Of a stretch of DNA of 64,000 bases, positions 1 to 63,691 are shown piece by piece. The position numbers and the translations under genes are program-made. The first letter of the stretch is position 1. Each line of letters opens with the position of its first letter. The notes beneath the pieces were generated by a model. That model searched no databases and had not been told where the DNA came from. It saw nothing but the letters and a program-made list of their open reading frames with translations. The DNA comes from Bacillus sp. ISL-37 (GTDB lineage Bacteria > Bacillota > Bacilli > Bacillales > Cytobacillaceae). The stretch spans positions 101,384 to 165,383 of the forward strand of contig NZ_JAGGQL010000006.1 of NCBI RefSeq assembly GCF_018613315.1, written 5' to 3'.

Positions 1-92
1 TTGACAGCTTTTCGGCTTCCACACCCTAACCTGTCACGATTCCGAGCTTTTCTTGACAGCTTTTCGGCTTCCACAGCTCAACCTGTCATAAT
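1..92. repeat. 52-bp tandem array, version A, left-edge part
   Basis: Two units spaced exactly 52 bp (GACAGC at 3 and 55) that match the larger array at 63215-63668. Each unit has inverted arms TGACAG and CTGTCA about 23 bases apart. The array runs off the left edge and ends just before the stop codon of the acyl-CoA dehydrogenase gene. Confidence 0.85.
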
Positions 93-8245: not shown

Positions 8246-8387
8246 CTTTATAGCGGGGAACTCATTTTTATAGCGGAAAAAGCCTTTTTAAAGCGAGAAT
8301 TTGAATATTATAGCGAAAATCAACTTTTTATAGCGACTTTCTAATTTTTATAGCGAATTGGAAATTCCGCTTGATTTTTTCCAATTC
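8246..8387. repeat. 20-bp-period array, word TATAGCG, with terminal hairpin
   Basis: The core AGCG recurs at exact 20-base steps: the units begin at 8251, 8271, 8291, 8311, 8331 and 8351. The last unit runs into a hairpin of GAATTGGAAA and TTTTTTCCAATTC (about 8355-8387). The array fills the gap between the convergent genes uvsE and argS and abuts the argS terminator. Related arrays lie at 10969-11227, 48176-48262 and 54090-54211. Confidence 0.85.
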
Positions 8388-18439: not shown

Positions 18440-18625
18440 ATGCCATACGTAACAGTAAAAATGATTGAAGGCCGCACAGAGGACCAAAAGAAAGCGCTTG
18501 TTGAAAAGGTAACGGACGCTGTCAGCGAAACAACCGGCGCACCCAAAGAGAAAGTCGTCGTGTTCATCGAGGAAATGGCGAAGAACCACTATGCGGTAGC
18601 AGGCAAGAGGTTGAGTGACGAGTAG
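18440..18625 (+). CDS. ywhB: 4-oxalocrotonate tautomerase family protein
   Basis: Small tautomerase-fold protein of 61 residues with the catalytic amino-terminal proline (MPYVTVKMIEGR; Pro1 after Met removal). The segment GAPKEKVVVFIEEM is typical. Keto-enol tautomerisation of a 2-hydroxydienoate-like substrate is the family reaction; the natural substrate is unknown. ATG behind AAGGAGG. Short for a gene but strongly supported by homology and position next to ywhC. Confidence 0.9.
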   Translation: MPYVTVKMIEGRTEDQKKALVEKVTDAVSETTGAPKEKVVVFIEEMAKNHYAVAGKRLSDE

Positions 18626-18634
18626 GAACGAACG

Positions 18635-18666
18635 AAAAGCTCAGATGATTCTGGGCTTTTTCTTTT
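18635..18666 (+). terminator. Terminator of ywhB
   Basis: AAAAGCTCAG pairs with CTGGGCTTTT (one G-T pair), followed by a T-rich tract. Confidence 0.75.
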
Positions 18667-18670
18667 TATG

Positions 18671-19075
18671 TGACAAGTTACTTGTGCCTTCCCTTTTCCA
18701 GGCACATGCCTCCCTTTCTTGTGACCGTGATCCTCGATTTCTCCTTTTCACGGGCACATGTTTCCCTTTCTTGTGACCGTGAACCGCCGTTTCCCCTTTT
18801 CACGGGCACATGTTTCCCTTTTTTGTGACCGTGAACCGCCGTTTCCCCTTTTCACGGGCACATGTTTCCCTTTCTTGTGACCGTGATCCGCGGTTCCTCC
18901 TTTTCACGGGCACATGTTACCCTTTCTTGTGACCGTGAACCGCGGTTTCCTCTTTTCACGGGCACATGTTTCCCTTTCTTGTGACCGTGAACCGCCGTTT
19001 CCTCTTTTCACGGGCACATGTTTCCCTTTCTTGTGACCGTGATCCGCTATTTCACCTTTTCACGGGCACAAACTG
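18671..19075. repeat. 52-bp tandem array, version B
   Basis: The word GGGCACA starts at exact 52-base steps (CGGG at 18751, 18803, 18855, 18907, 18959, 19011, 19063), with a decayed unit at 18699. Each unit carries inverted arms TCACGGGCACA and TGTGACCGTGA (one mismatch in 11) around TTTCCCTTTCT. Point differences between units show drift without loss of period. It fills the convergent gap between ywhB and ywgA; apart from the ywhB terminator I see nothing else there. Confidence 0.95.
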
Positions 19076-19166
19076 TTTACTACCTAACTAACCCTTCTTC
19101 CACATAACAAAAAACCGAGCACAAAACCCTAAAAGGTCCCATACTCGATTCATAATAAAAATCTTC

Positions 19167-19682
19167 TTATGCCAACAATTGCTTTGACTTATTTTTCAAG
19201 CTCGCGATATACGCATATGCTTCATCGATCTCTTCGTCTGTGTACTTCTGGCTCTTTTTCACGGTCTGGATCTTTTCCCGGACTTCAGCTTCTGGCAAGT
19301 TATCAAAATACAAAACAGTTGAAACGAGTTCAAGGAATCTTGCATTCTGGTCGTTAATGTCTGTCAGGCAGTCACCAAGGCATGGCATTTCGACGCTGTT
19401 TTCACCGAGGAATTCCTGGCCTGATTCAGTCAATGTGTAGCGGTACTGGTAGTAGCCGCCTTTCTTTTCCTTCACTTCGTCCAAAAAGCCCATGTTGCAA
19501 AGCTCTTCTACCCGCAATGTAAGTTCTTCGGAATATGGTCCGTAAAAATGGAACTGGAAGCGTTCCTGGAACGGGAATTCCATCTTTTTTGCAATATAGA
19601 TCATTTTCTGCAGTTTTTTCCTGCCGATGACCTCTCCGGAAACTGAAATGGCATGTATGATTTTAGCGTGGTCTTTTAGCAA
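19167..19682 (-). CDS. ywgA: YwgA family protein
   Basis: A 171-residue protein of unknown function. The N-terminal half (KIIHAISVSGEVIGRKKLQK, then FHFYGPYSEEL) resembles the winged-helix, antitoxin-like domain shared with SocA/GepA-type proteins; the C-terminal half is helical. It starts at TTG behind AGGAG and lies 18 bases after ywfO, so the two are cotranscribed as in B. subtilis. A regulatory role is only a guess. Confidence 0.85.
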   Translation of the reverse strand: MLKDHAKIIHAISVSGEVIGRKKLQKMIYIAKKMEFPFQERFQFHFYGPYSEELTLRVEELCNMGFLDEVKEKKGGYYQYRYTLTESGQEFLGENSVEMPCLGDCLTDINDQNARFLELVSTVLYFDNLPEAEVREKIQTVKKSQKYTDEEIDEAYAYIASLKNKSKQLLA

Positions 19683-30178: not shown

Positions 30179-30412
30179 TCAACCGCCAGATACAGGCGGA
30201 ATGAAGGCGATTGTATCTCCTTCTTTAATAACTTCATCATTGGATGAAAATTCTTCATTGATCGCTGTCATTGAAGTATCGAGCTTTTGAACGCCATACT
30301 TTTCAGCGACCATTTCTTTTAACTGTGCAACTGTTTTGCCAGCTGCTTCTATTTCAACTGATTCATGGCCTGCTTCGTCTCGTAGATGGGCAAAAAATAA
30401 AATTTTATTCAT
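30179..30412 (-). CDS. moaD: Molybdopterin synthase small subunit MoaD
   Basis: Ubiquitin-like sulfur carrier of 77 residues ending in the required Gly-Gly (PPVSGG). Donates sulfur to cyclic pyranopterin monophosphate within the MoaD-MoaE complex. Its ATG overlaps the 3' end of moaE by eight bases, so translation is coupled. Confidence 0.93.
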   Translation of the reverse strand: MNKILFFAHLRDEAGHESVEIEAAGKTVAQLKEMVAEKYGVQKLDTSMTAINEEFSSNDEVIKEGDTIAFIPPVSGG

Positions 30413-30869
30413 TGAGATCCTTCTCCTCCGGTTTCCCTGTCGGATATGGGACAGTTTCTAGTTGATTGCCGATCCATTCTTCGCCGTCTTCCCAATGCTC
30501 TTTTTTCCAGATTGGGACGATTTCCTTAATGCGCTCGATTGCATAGCGATTTGCTTCATAGGCATCGTTGCGGTGTGGCGTGGATACAGCAATCACCACG
30601 GCGATATCCGTGATGTCAAGTTTGCCGACGCGGTGTGTAATCGCAACCTCAGCACCCTTCCAGCGCTCCTGGATTTCCGTGCCGATTTGCTCCAGCTTTT
30701 TCACCGCCATCGGTTCGTATGCTTCATATATAAGGTAAAGAGTTTTTTTACCTTTTGTCAATTCACGGACAGTGCCAATGAAAGTAGTAATTGCTCCCGC
30801 TTCACGCTGGACCACTTTATCAATGACGGATTGAACGTTGATTGGATCTTTCGCTATTTCATAATTCAT
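30405..30869 (-). CDS. moaE: Molybdopterin synthase catalytic subunit MoaE
   Basis: Catalytic half of molybdopterin synthase. The 154 residues hold GAITTFIGTVRE, the substrate segment RVGKLDI and the lysine-bearing VPIWKKEHWEDG that lines the active site with the MoaD tail. I chose ATG at 30869, six bases behind GAGGTG; three codons upstream are inside that site. First of the moaE-moaD-moeB trio. Confidence 0.94.
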   Translation of the reverse strand: MNYEIAKDPINVQSVIDKVVQREAGAITTFIGTVRELTKGKKTLYLIYEAYEPMAVKKLEQIGTEIQERWKGAEVAITHRVGKLDITDIAVVIAVSTPHRNDAYEANRYAIERIKEIVPIWKKEHWEDGEEWIGNQLETVPYPTGKPEEKDLNE

Positions 30870-30914
30870 CAATATCACCTCAATAAACTGATCCGGGTCA
30901 GGATGTATTTTTTA

Positions 30915-31033: not shown

Positions 31034-32953
31034 CTAAAAATAAACCGGCTCTGGGTTCTCGACGACTGCGTAGCCGCCAATTTTGGCTACTTCTGCTTTG
31101 AACGCATCCGATTGAATCACGGACCTTAACCAGATACCCTTTTCGCTTTCGAAAAATGCCTTTGTCATCAGTAAATCGTAATTTTCGTCACCGACCGGGA
31201 TGAAGTCAAGCCCCATCGCGCGTGCGGCCGGGAAGATTCCGAGGCCTGCTGCGTTGTCATTTCCTTTCACTTCCGCAGCTACGCTCAAGTGTGAGAACAT
31301 TTCGCGGTCATAGCCGTTGACATCGTCTGCGTTCAGGCCTGCTTCTTTTAACAATAAATCGAATAATATACGAGTGCCGGCGCCCTTTTGCCTGTTGGCG
31401 TAATCTGCACCCTTTTCGGCAATGTCACTGACGCTCTCAATCCCAAGTGGATTGCCTTTTGGAAGCATCCAGCCCTGGGTTCTTTTTAAAAATGGATATA
31501 GGACTGCGTCTTGCCCTGCAAGGAATTTCCTTACGTAGGTAACATTATATTCCTTTGTCTCCGGGTCTAGCAAATGAATGCCCGCTACATGGGCTTCCCC
31601 TTTCCTGATTGCCATTAATCCGGCCATGCTGCCAACATGGGAAGAAACAATTTTCATGTCGGTTCGCTGCCTTTTGATCTGGGATGACAGCAGATCAATC
31701 GTCAGATCATGGCTGCCGCTGAAGACGATTGCGTTCTTGATTTCTTCGACAGGCCTGTATAGCTCAACCTCGACGATGTCTCCTTGTTCGTATCCCAGTT
31801 CTTCCGGCGGTACGACGAGCAGACCATCTGCACGTACAAGTGACATGGTGACGCCCGCCGCGCGTGTCAGCGGATTGGCGACAAATTGTCCATCCACATA
31901 GCCGATATTCATTCGGACAAAGTCCTCCGCCCCCATCGTGGAGACGATCCTGCGGCCAAGCTTTACCTTGAGCTTTGGCCTTTCCGGTTCCGGTATCCCT
32001 AAATATTTACAAACGAGCGGTCTTACAAACCACTCCATTGCCATGTACGCGGAAACTGGATAGCCCGGTACACCGACGACTACCTTATCTTTAATTTTCC
32101 CAAGGATAACTGGCTTCCCCGGCCTTGTTGCGACACCATGGGTAAAAACAGTGCCAAGCTCCTCAAGAATATGAACTGTATAATCCTTTGAACCAGCTGA
32201 TGACCCGGCATTGATGACGACAATATCAGATGTTTCCACGGCTTCCAGCAGTGCTTCTCTGATTTTTTCCGGCTCATCCTTCACGATTGGATGCAGATAT
32301 GGCTGTCCGCCCCAATCCTCTACATAGTTGCTAAAAACCGTTCCATTGAATTCAATGATCCTGCCCGATGACAGTGAAGAATCCGCGCTGACTAGTTCAT
32401 TTCCGGTCGGGATGATTGTCACGAGTGGCTTTTTGACGACAGCCACCTCTGTAACCTGCGCCGCAAGTAATGCCCCGAGGTCAGCTGGACGCAATTGATG
32501 TCCCTGTGTGAACAGCATTTCCTCCTGGACGATATCCTCGCCAATCGGGCGGATATGCTGCCAAGGTGTTGCCGGCTCGATGATTTCGATTGTCTCATCA
32601 TCGATGACCTGGATGTTTTCCACCATAATCACCGCATTATATTGAGGCGGAATCGCATTCCCGGTATCAACGTATTCGAACTGCTCACCCATTTTCAAAT
32701 GGAGAGGACGCTGTTCATGTGCTTCATAAGTATCCTCGGCGTTCACGGCAATCCCGTCCATCGCGGATGCATGGTAAAAAGGCATTGAAACATTGGCGAA
32801 GACAGGTTCAGCAGTAATTCGGCCCAGGGCGCCGGCAGCCGGGATCCACTCTTTTTCCTGAGGCAGGTCGAACGCGGCTAGCACTTCATTCCTGGCTTGT
32901 GCCCTCGGCTTGTCTTCAAGATAAATTTTTCTGTTATAGCGTATTTTATCCAT
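31034..32953 (-). CDS. MoeA fused to a periplasmic-binding-protein-like domain
   Basis: Molybdopterin molybdenumtransferase fusion of 639 residues. Residues 1-400 are MoeA-like, with PFYHASAMDGIAV, VEIQPTGNELV-type (here IIPTGNELV), NAGSSAGSKDY and GVPGYPVSAYM. Residues 410-620 match the PBP-like domain found after MoeA or ModE-type regulators (start IVFSGSHDLTIDLL, then HVGSMAGLMAIRKGEAHVAG). The C-terminal domain may sense molybdate or tungstate or a cofactor form. The adjacent moeA is a plain copy, so the two may differ in metal or step. ATG behind GGGGGAG. Confidence 0.9.
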   Translation of the reverse strand: MDKIRYNRKIYLEDKPRAQARNEVLAAFDLPQEKEWIPAAGALGRITAEPVFANVSMPFYHASAMDGIAVNAEDTYEAHEQRPLHLKMGEQFEYVDTGNAIPPQYNAVIMVENIQVIDDETIEIIEPATPWQHIRPIGEDIVQEEMLFTQGHQLRPADLGALLAAQVTEVAVVKKPLVTIIPTGNELVSADSSLSSGRIIEFNGTVFSNYVEDWGGQPYLHPIVKDEPEKIREALLEAVETSDIVVINAGSSAGSKDYTVHILEELGTVFTHGVATRPGKPVILGKIKDKVVVGVPGYPVSAYMAMEWFVRPLVCKYLGIPEPERPKLKVKLGRRIVSTMGAEDFVRMNIGYVDGQFVANPLTRAAGVTMSLVRADGLLVVPPEELGYEQGDIVEVELYRPVEEIKNAIVFSGSHDLTIDLLSSQIKRQRTDMKIVSSHVGSMAGLMAIRKGEAHVAGIHLLDPETKEYNVTYVRKFLAGQDAVLYPFLKRTQGWMLPKGNPLGIESVSDIAEKGADYANRQKGAGTRILFDLLLKEAGLNADDVNGYDREMFSHLSVAAEVKGNDNAAGLGIFPAARAMGLDFIPVGDENYDLLMTKAFFESEKGIWLRSVIQSDAFKAEVAKIGGYAVVENPEPVYF

Positions 32954-42677: not shown

Positions 42678-42915
42678 AAAAGCGCAAGCGCCTTGGTCAG
42701 CCCCGACAAGCGCTGGAGGGCCTGACAGTGAAGTCGTTCTTTGACTTCATTGGCAGGACCGAACTCGAAAAGCGTAGGCGACTGCCCAACTCCGACAAGC
42801 GCTGGAGGGCCTGACAGTGAAGTCGTTCTTTGACTTCATTGGCAGGACCGAAGCGTCTCGAGGAGTTAGGAGCCGCAGCTAGACAAGCGACTCGAGGGGC
42901 TAGGCCCTTGAGCTA
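42676..42915. repeat. Dispersed GC-rich repeat element, partly duplicated
   Basis: It begins GAAAAGCGCAAGCGCC just inside the pdxK stop. A segment from GACAAGCGCTGG to GCAGGACCGAA occurs twice (from 42705 and from 42794), 89 bases apart, each with the hairpin GAAGTC / GACTTC around GTTCTTT. Same element type as 23769-24003. Confidence 0.85.
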
Positions 42916-42969
42916 GACACTAATCTAAATGAAAAAATTTCACTTTCTTAAAAGGTAACAACAAAACAA

Positions 42970-62442: not shown

Positions 62443-63147
62443 ATGAAACTTAAAACACTTCTGATACTTGTGCTGCTGGTGGCCGGTATGATTCTTGGGG
62501 GCTGCCAGCAGGATAACAAGGAACCTGTAGCTGAGAACAACTCAAGTGAGCAGAAAGCAGAGGAAAGCTCGAATGACGGATTTCAGGCTGATGACAAAGT
62601 CGTCACCATCAATGGCAAGGTGCTCAGCTATGAAGACCTGCAATTTTATCAGCTGATGAACAAGGTTGATATCGAGCTGAACCGCGCCGTCGATGAAAAG
62701 AATCTGCAGGGCGAGGAACTGACGGAAAAAATGGCCTATTGGGATGAGCAGTTAAAGTATCATGATAACTTCAACGTCAATCTATCAAAAATGATGGAGC
62801 AGCATACCATGTACCTGCTTGCCAGAGAAAAAGGACTTGGCGTAGAGACTGCTCAGGTTAGCAAGACCGTTGAAGATTTCACAGCCAAAGTCGCACAGAA
62901 TGAAGTGGCATCACAGCTAGTATCTGGCTTTCCTTCAGATGCGTACGAGAACAGGCTGAGCAACTATTTCACCGAAAAGCTGCTCACATTGCAAATTTAC
63001 GAAACTCTTAAGGCCGATGTCGTAAAAGAGAAGCCTAATGCTTCCGAAAAAGAAGTCGCTTATGACACTGCCAAGAATTACGAAGAACTATACCAATCCC
63101 AAATCGCTAGTTTGGAGATTAAAATTAATGCAACTGAGCATGAGTAG
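62443..63147 (+). CDS. SurA/PrsA-like chaperone lipoprotein in the nos operon
   Basis: A 234-residue lipoprotein (lipobox LGGCQQ), acidic linker, then a SurA_N-like helical domain (VVTINGKVLSYEDLQFYQLMNK, MEQHTMYLLAREKGLGV). No parvulin isomerase domain follows, so it would act as a holding chaperone rather than an isomerase. Six bases after the YtkA-like gene. It may fold exported NosZ or NosD; it could also be unrelated. Confidence 0.75.
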   Translation: MKLKTLLILVLLVAGMILGGCQQDNKEPVAENNSSEQKAEESSNDGFQADDKVVTINGKVLSYEDLQFYQLMNKVDIELNRAVDEKNLQGEELTEKMAYWDEQLKYHDNFNVNLSKMMEQHTMYLLAREKGLGVETAQVSKTVEDFTAKVAQNEVASQLVSGFPSDAYENRLSNYFTEKLLTLQIYETLKADVVKEKPNASEKEVAYDTAKNYEELYQSQIASLEIKINATEHE

Positions 63148-63214: not shown

Positions 63215-63668
63215 CACAATTATTCTGCTTTTGCTCATGAACCTGTCATAATTCAGGGCTTATCGTGACAGCTTTTCCGCTTTCACTCGCGAACCTGTCA
63301 CGATTCCGAGGTTTTCTTGACAGCTTTTCGGCTCTCACACCCAAACCTGTCACGATTCCGAGGTTTTCTTGACAGCTTTACGGTTCTTACACCCAAACCT
63401 GTCACGATTCCGAGGTTTTCTTGACAGCTTTTCGGCTCTCACACCCAAACCTGTCACGATTCCGGCGTTTTCATGACAGCTTTACGGCTCTTATACCCAA
63501 ACCTGTCACGATTCCGAGGTTTTCTTGACAGCTTTTCGGCTCTCACACCCAAACCTGTCACGATTCCAGGGTTTTCTTGACAGCTTTACGGCTCTTACAC
63601 CCAAACCTGTCACGATTCCGAGGTTTTCTTGACAGCTTTACGGCTCTTTCACCCAAACCTGTCAGAAT
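63215..63668. repeat. 52-bp tandem array, version A
   Basis: GACAGC starts at 63267, 63319, 63371, 63423, 63475, 63527, 63579 and 63631, exactly 52 bases apart, with a partial unit before. Each unit has arms TGACAG and CTGTCA and the linker CGATTCCGAGGTTTTC. Units alternate between TTTTCGG and TTTACGG. It fills the convergent gap between the nos operon and ybaK, and matches the left window edge. Confidence 0.97.
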
Positions 63669-63691
63669 CCTTATCCTATTAAGAAAAACAT

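Follow-up and report, generated by a model that had tools for sequence, protein, structure and literature searches.

Tandem arrays with a unit of 52 nt have already been described in Bacillus, where they were found in about 30% of the species studied (176 genomes), keep a constant length while their sequence varies, and were suggested to involve nucleoid proteins or small RNAs (Subirana and Messeguer 2021, PMC8161180). The same account names B. selenatarsenatis, B. boroniphilus, and B. subterraneus as rich in these repeats, reports no sequence conservation other than short species-specific signals, and does not give orientation (PMC8161180). RNA-seq reads originating from B. coagulans arrays are reported in a passage of a second study (PMC8625621). 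Two other systems invite comparison. Like the arrays described here, REP/BIME elements with RAYT are imperfect hairpins with a conserved tetranucleotide foot, present in many copies; however, their foot is given as GT[AG]G in a passage of PMC6006769, rather than TGTC/GACA or CACA/TGTG, and the present arrays are strictly tandem at 52 nt. That source also states, in one of its passages, that the IS200/IS605 and REP enzymes act on single-strand DNA, of which the lagging strand is an important source (PMC6006769). The Y1 transposase (PF01797), found in 221 of 299 genomes of the order, gave no match at E <= 0.001 in the home genome of the arrays studied here or in a second array-bearing genome (G014). 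The different foot and the lack of a Y1 match in the home genome do not fit membership in the REP/RAYT system, and a RAYT or Y1 transposase is not supported as the present driver of the arrays. CRISPR loci likewise have a fixed repeat-plus-linker geometry, a likeness that was raised and then dismissed in print (PMC8161180). Their spacers are unique, whereas the linkers here are repeated within arrays, which does not fit CRISPR membership, and the arrays are many and dispersed.

The window, by which we mean the whole 64-kb stretch of DNA analysed (part of contig C60 of a 4.74-Mb draft genome, the home genome), contains five 52-bp arrays (Table 1). Three were recovered by Tandem Repeats Finder at period 52, namely B (18691-19070, 7.3 copies, 0% indels), C2 (43058-43278, 4.2 copies, 1% indels), and A2 (63240-63664, 8.2 copies, 0% indels), while A1 and C1, of about two units each, were identified by direct reading. 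The nearest named relatives of the home genome in a protein-based scan were Bacillus sp. ISL-41, Mesobacillus selenatarsenatis, and M. subterraneus. The window arrays belong to the published Bacillus 52-nt class: the tandem unit lies within 51 to 53 nt, several families occur per genome, the arrays are non-coding (genes being longest-ORF calls), and array length varies, between strains in the published account and between species of the genus here. The preliminary description, which knew of no such family, was mistaken on this point, since 52-nt arrays of variable sequence had been published along with ideas of nucleoid proteins and RNA. Unlike the published account, the present analysis finds a core shared across genera, covarying arms, persistence of sites with turnover of their sequence, and polarity relative to replication with one clear exception, none of which was found in the literature searched, Subirana and Messeguer (2020) lying outside it.

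Table 1. Arrays and neighbouring genes in the window; the strand given for an array is its purine-rich strand
Feature	Position	Strand	Description
A1	1..92	-	T1 array, right end, ~1.8 units inside the window
B	18671..19075 (core 18694-19074)	-	T2 array, 7.3 units; outer arms TCACGG/CCGTGA
C1	30915..31021	-	T1 array, ~2 units; left core decayed to TGGCC
C2	43056..43284	-	T1 array, 4.4 units; core TGTCC(17)GGACA
A2	63223..63670	-	T1 array, 8.6 units; core TGTCA(17)TGACA
Tautomerase gene	18440-18625	+	convergent neighbour of array B
Gene without Pfam match	19167-19682	-	convergent neighbour of array B
moaE-like gene	30405-30878	-	neighbour of array C1
moeA-like gene	31034-32953	-	neighbour of array C1
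A2 left neighbour gene	62443-63147	+	array A2 follows
A2 right neighbour gene	3' end ~63691	-	beyond array A2

Convergent genes flank three of the five window arrays and C1 sits between two minus-strand genes; the left neighbour of A1 lies outside the window. By eye, terminator-like hairpins were seen on either side of B (about 18635-18668 and 19108-19147), one for each gene and located before the array. In G010, G016, G018, and G019, arrays of the A family likewise preceded the B array by about 19 to 21 kb, and arrays of 7.8 units (G018) and 5.8 units (G019) lay about 12 kb from B, a spacing like that of C1; judged by this distance alone, the latter two would be orthologous to C1. Three contigs of the draft genome (C39, C13, and C41) end at most about 125 bases from 52-nt arrays, so assembly may fail at arrays and their count may be too low.

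The periodicity of the arrays at 52 bp is beyond chance. Across 449 kb of the home genome, 5516 array bases fell at period 52, compared with 615 at 51, 190 at 53, and 144 at 54, and none at periods 49, 50, or 55. A similar profile was obtained for 400 kb of the array-rich genome G282, with 7907 array bases at period 52 versus 168 (50), 835 (51), 165 (53), and 343 (54). Some of the bases at the neighbouring periods may merely reflect 52-bp arrays, as their shadows. The arrays that the preliminary description had reported are therefore real, with five in the window and 52 dominating array bases across the 449 kb; its inverted arms are present in the units, those of B carrying one mismatch, and its fixed period with changing unit sequence holds both in the home genome and across genera. 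The further claim that no insertion or deletion breaks the period stands for B and A2, with 0% indels, but not for every array, as rare indels occur elsewhere: one unit on contig C39 of the home genome has one extra base, and one two-unit step in G016 measures 103 rather than 104. That 52 bases amount to five helical turns is arithmetic, not evidence. As a whole, the interpretation put forward at that stage is partly supported.

Sequence versions A, B, and C, originally thought unrelated, were found to fall under two cores. Versions A and C have TGTC-N19-GACA-N25 in common (T1), and version B is held by a second core, CACA-N13-TGTG with outer arms (T2). Among 126 distinct array units, 64 were T1 (at most one mismatch), 49 were T2, and 13 were neither, and this classification rules out unrelated versions; the share of 113/126 is inflated, because 30 loci were fetched by the T1 pattern and many others by likeness to B. 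The exact two-unit pattern TGTC-N19-GACA-N25-TGTC-N19-GACA matched 506 times in the home genome and, read backwards, not once. Of 299 Bacillales genomes, 51 carried it, the home genome among them; these represent 26 of 117 genera. The backwards control had a match in one of the 299. When genomes were drawn from across the phylum, the only one of 299 with the pattern was the home genome. By eye, five of the 20 consensus units in Table 1 of PMC8161180 fit TGTC-N19-GACA, two of them from coagulans and one each from litoralis, thermoamylovorans, and alkalitelluris. A stricter geometry of 5-bp arms with 17/25 spacing, which visual reading had suggested for all three versions, was dropped as a universal rule because some units of that published table do not fit. 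Array boundaries were also considered as a clue to element ends. T2 arrays started (30/48) and ended (30/48) inside the CACA-spacer-TGTG stretch, and T1 boundaries formed two clusters, so that no single element end was defined.

Positions outside the conserved letters changed in a compensatory manner. The inner stem of T1 (8 base pairs, 55 units) was paired at 0.639, compared with 0.363 ± 0.020 in shuffled sets (maximum of 1000, 0.434), with a covariation score of 0.255 versus 0.058 ± 0.009. When the partner was slid by 1 to 3 bases, pairing fell to or below the shuffled level and the score to between 0.018 and 0.060. One T1 pair was standard in 53 of 55 units, as AT (19), TA (17), CG (15), or GC (2), a range of pairings that is difficult to reach without covariation. 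The T1 signal persisted when the 17 units of the home genus and the 38 units of other genera were each analysed separately. The outer stem of T2 (25 units) scored 0.102 versus 0.022 ± 0.007 for shuffled sets, and at pair 51-21 a T.C mismatch was kept in 24 of the 25 otherwise covarying stems, as if it belonged to what is recognised. These statistics ignore the relatedness of sequences; units at >=85% identity had been dropped and one coagulans row left out of T2. Within arrays, stem positions varied less than other positions (0.048 versus 0.095 in T2, 0.058 versus 0.143 in T1). On the purine strand, G.T exceeded A.C (114:52 in T2, 69:42 in T1), a weak signal in counts that include related units. 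Mutation that tends to perfect palindromes could leave the same pattern as selection on stems, a possibility against which the kept T.C mismatch argues. The covarying arms fit a folding strand better than a protein that reads sequence alone.

The sites of arrays outlast their sequence. The gene without Pfam match beside B was located in 120 of 121 genomes, and 22 of the 30 fetched loci were read beyond its 3' end. De novo array detection at the B-orthologous site succeeded in 13 of the 18 closest loci (L031-L048, all in the genus); the other five, by eye, had one or two units or reached a contig end. No array was present at this site in G007, counted in the genus, or in the three loci of other genera that were read. 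Units at the orthologous site were 0.46 to 0.94 identical to the B consensus of the window, and depending on the species their outer stem was TCACGG/CCGTGA, TTATC/GATAA, or CCGG/CCGG; the arms covary, the array being kept while its letters changed. The comparison of relatives that had been proposed at the outset thus shows both unit number and sequence to differ at one orthologous site between species of the genus. T2 units were more alike at different sites of one genome (identity 0.714, 119 pairs) than at the same site in different genomes (0.652, 103 pairs) or otherwise (0.631, 904 pairs), which suggests homogenisation of units inside each genome. Records titled Chryseobacterium sp. ISL-80 (L206), Pseudomonas sp. 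ISL-84 (L252), and Cytobacillus oceanisediminis 2691 strain DE0166 (L205) contained Bacillaceae-type loci with 98, 75, and 96% protein identity to the query, respectively, and their names look doubtful.

Relative to replication, arrays nearly always take the same orientation in three of the four families examined closely. With the leading strand called from the GC skew of each locus after masking the arrays, the purine-rich strand was leading in 64 of 68 Mesobacillus arrays and in 61 of the 63 with a clear bias; in the four arrays that deviated, purine bias was weak (0.42-0.55). One of the 68 (L152 19788) resembles a coding collagen-type repeat, and its removal gives 63/67; a second (L185) has a skew of -0.002, such that its sign means little, and removal of both gives 62/66. 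Mean purine content of the leading strand was 0.636 in arrays and 0.519 (SD 0.044) in 739 other intergenic gaps. Many of the 68 arrays come from loci fetched by likeness to B. In stretches that had not been selected for a listed array, the purine strand was leading in 20 of 23 arrays, a set drawn from contiguous or evenly spaced stretches, although the presence of a B array was known beforehand for contig C33 and for the regions around the B orthologue.

Clusters along complete chromosomes, tallied by hand, gave the same picture. All 36 B-type clusters among those listed for six complete genomes agreed with the skew measured locally or next to them; many are already among the 68 arrays, and skews here were taken without array masking. 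Among the A-type clusters listed for four complete genomes, 42 of the 43 that could be placed agreed (placement by chromosome half, skew without array masking); the exception lay at 526 kb of G010, and a 44th, near the terminus, was left unplaced. In two genomes of other GTDB families with different units, all clusters switched strand between chromosome halves (26/26 in G187 and 8/8 in G173), placement being by chromosome half with local skew measured at one array each. By local skew, the purine strand was leading in 28 of 30 arrays at named Mesobacillus, Neobacillus, Cytobacillus, and other Bacillus loci, a set that overlaps the 68 at some sites of the same species. At 20 loci of other genera or families, it was leading in 17 of 25 arrays and in 14 of the 18 with a clear bias. 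Counted by array family, the figure was 36/44, or 35/43 without the collagen-type repeat. The clear exception was G282, which is array-rich and without polarity (8/14 arrays); among the rows listed, two of its families had both strands interleaved along the chromosome, with purine content nearly balanced. We refer to this genome as Bacillus coagulans-like because its units match coagulans families of the published table.

Signals read by DNA translocases are polar, and an orientation of this kind could be set by polar binding of a chromosome-organising or translocating protein, with a protein polymer on double-stranded DNA needing the 52-bp step of five turns. We regard this explanation as unlikely, though deserving of serious weight. 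It is favoured by a period that is constant across genera, by two half-sites per unit, and by polarity resembling that of translocase signals, and a role for nucleoid proteins has been proposed in print (PMC8161180). Compensatory arm changes within and between genomes are not predicted by a protein that reads sequence alone, however, and the arrays of G282 are unpolarised. Furthermore, none of 44 families had the SpoIIIE signal of B. subtilis, GAGAAGGG, as an exact leading-strand octamer, so the arrays do not qualify as SpoIIIE signals. No candidate protein emerged for the arrays.

Covarying stems and the slight G.T excess on the purine strand would equally be expected of non-coding RNA genes, whose hairpins would form in the RNA and whose orientation would come from co-directional transcription, and a passage of PMC8625621 documents RNA-seq reads from the B. 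coagulans arrays; we nevertheless consider this rather improbable. In crude motif scans, promoter-like sites upstream of arrays showed no excess on the leading strand (19/68, versus 20/68 on the lagging strand), and terminator-like hairpins separated the array from the gene end in 34 of 71 cases, compared with 340 of 843 other gene ends; 37 of the 71 had no terminator before the array, and 17 of the 71 had such a hairpin beyond it. Nor does the direction of flanking genes (longest-ORF calls, as in the terminator counts) affect polarity: between two genes both running against the fork, the purine strand was leading in 12 of 12 arrays (11/11 without the locus of skew -0.002). Since polarity persists there and promoter-like sites are equal between strands, replication rather than transcription appears to set it; transcription is not supported as its cause, and the polarity, promoter, and terminator data speak against a plain transcript role. 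At gathering score, Rfam gave no match in the window and none on the arrays of 20 of the 30 loci L061-L090, where two T-box matches and one SAM match lay outside the arrays. As a separate observation within the genus, arrays were enriched between two fork-opposed genes (12/63, versus 59/739 other gaps; p 0.008), although skew is near zero at one of these 12.

Satellites without function, with slippage and recombination amplifying quasi-palindromic units, palindrome correction keeping the arms complementary, and orientation-dependent loss sparing one orientation, are distinctly improbable: turnover of copy number and sequence at a fixed site and the greater likeness of units within genomes would be expected of them, but the same 52 and T1 core in 26 genera, the kept T.C mismatch, and the lower variation of stems would go unexplained by these processes alone.

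The interpretation that we tentatively favour, at somewhat less than even confidence, is that the arrays are hairpin satellites, coupled to chromosome replication, whose action and spread take place at the DNA level. It starts from the observed period, two cores, compensatory stems, site persistence, within-genome likeness, and orientation in three GTDB families. Each 52-nt unit would be one self-complementary module, in which a short conserved foot (TGTC/GACA or CACA/TGTG) is joined to a stem with covarying arms and to a linker or loop rich in purines. At the fork, where it is exposed as the template of the lagging strand, the purine-rich strand would fold into hairpins; predicted hairpin stability was equal between strands (higher for the leading strand in 66 of 123), which leaves the polarity unexplained by folding energy. 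A folding strand, within-genome likeness, and an orientation set by the fork together suggest copying or exchange of single strands at the lagging strand, which is reasonable given that the IS200/IS605 and REP enzymes work on single-strand DNA. At the fork, arrays may duplicate or lose whole modules and trade them with one another in single-strand form, such that period and polarity would be kept while the letters drift. Most speculatively, a putative protein might read the hairpin by shape and fix the 52-nt step, equivalent to five helical turns. A broader version of these hairpin satellites is conceivable, although we think it rather unlikely: a chromosome-wide system of the Bacillales, in which single-strand hairpins oriented with replication, set exactly 52 nt apart along the lagging-strand template and occupying fixed sites with replaced sequence, would be read by shape by a putative protein or a component of the fork.

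Core, stems, and polarity turn a description of constant size without conserved sequence into testable constraints, which concern the strand that folds, the fork process that copies or reads this strand, and the measure of 52 nt. Mesobacillus and the two other polarised families, set against the unpolarised coagulans-like genome, offer a natural comparison. The window also holds repeats of other kinds. A non-coding 20-nt tandem repeat (TTTATAGCGAAAATC...) at 8247-8366 is close to the second size class known in Bacillus, that of 20-21 nt, and, with a purine content of 0.48, is without strand bias. At 42680-42920, an interspersed repeat (GCGCCTTGGTCAGCCCCGACAAGCGCTGGAGG...TGAAGTCGTTCTTTGACTTCATTGG...) is present in about two tandem copies, and similar copies were found near the orthologous locus in L038 and L044.
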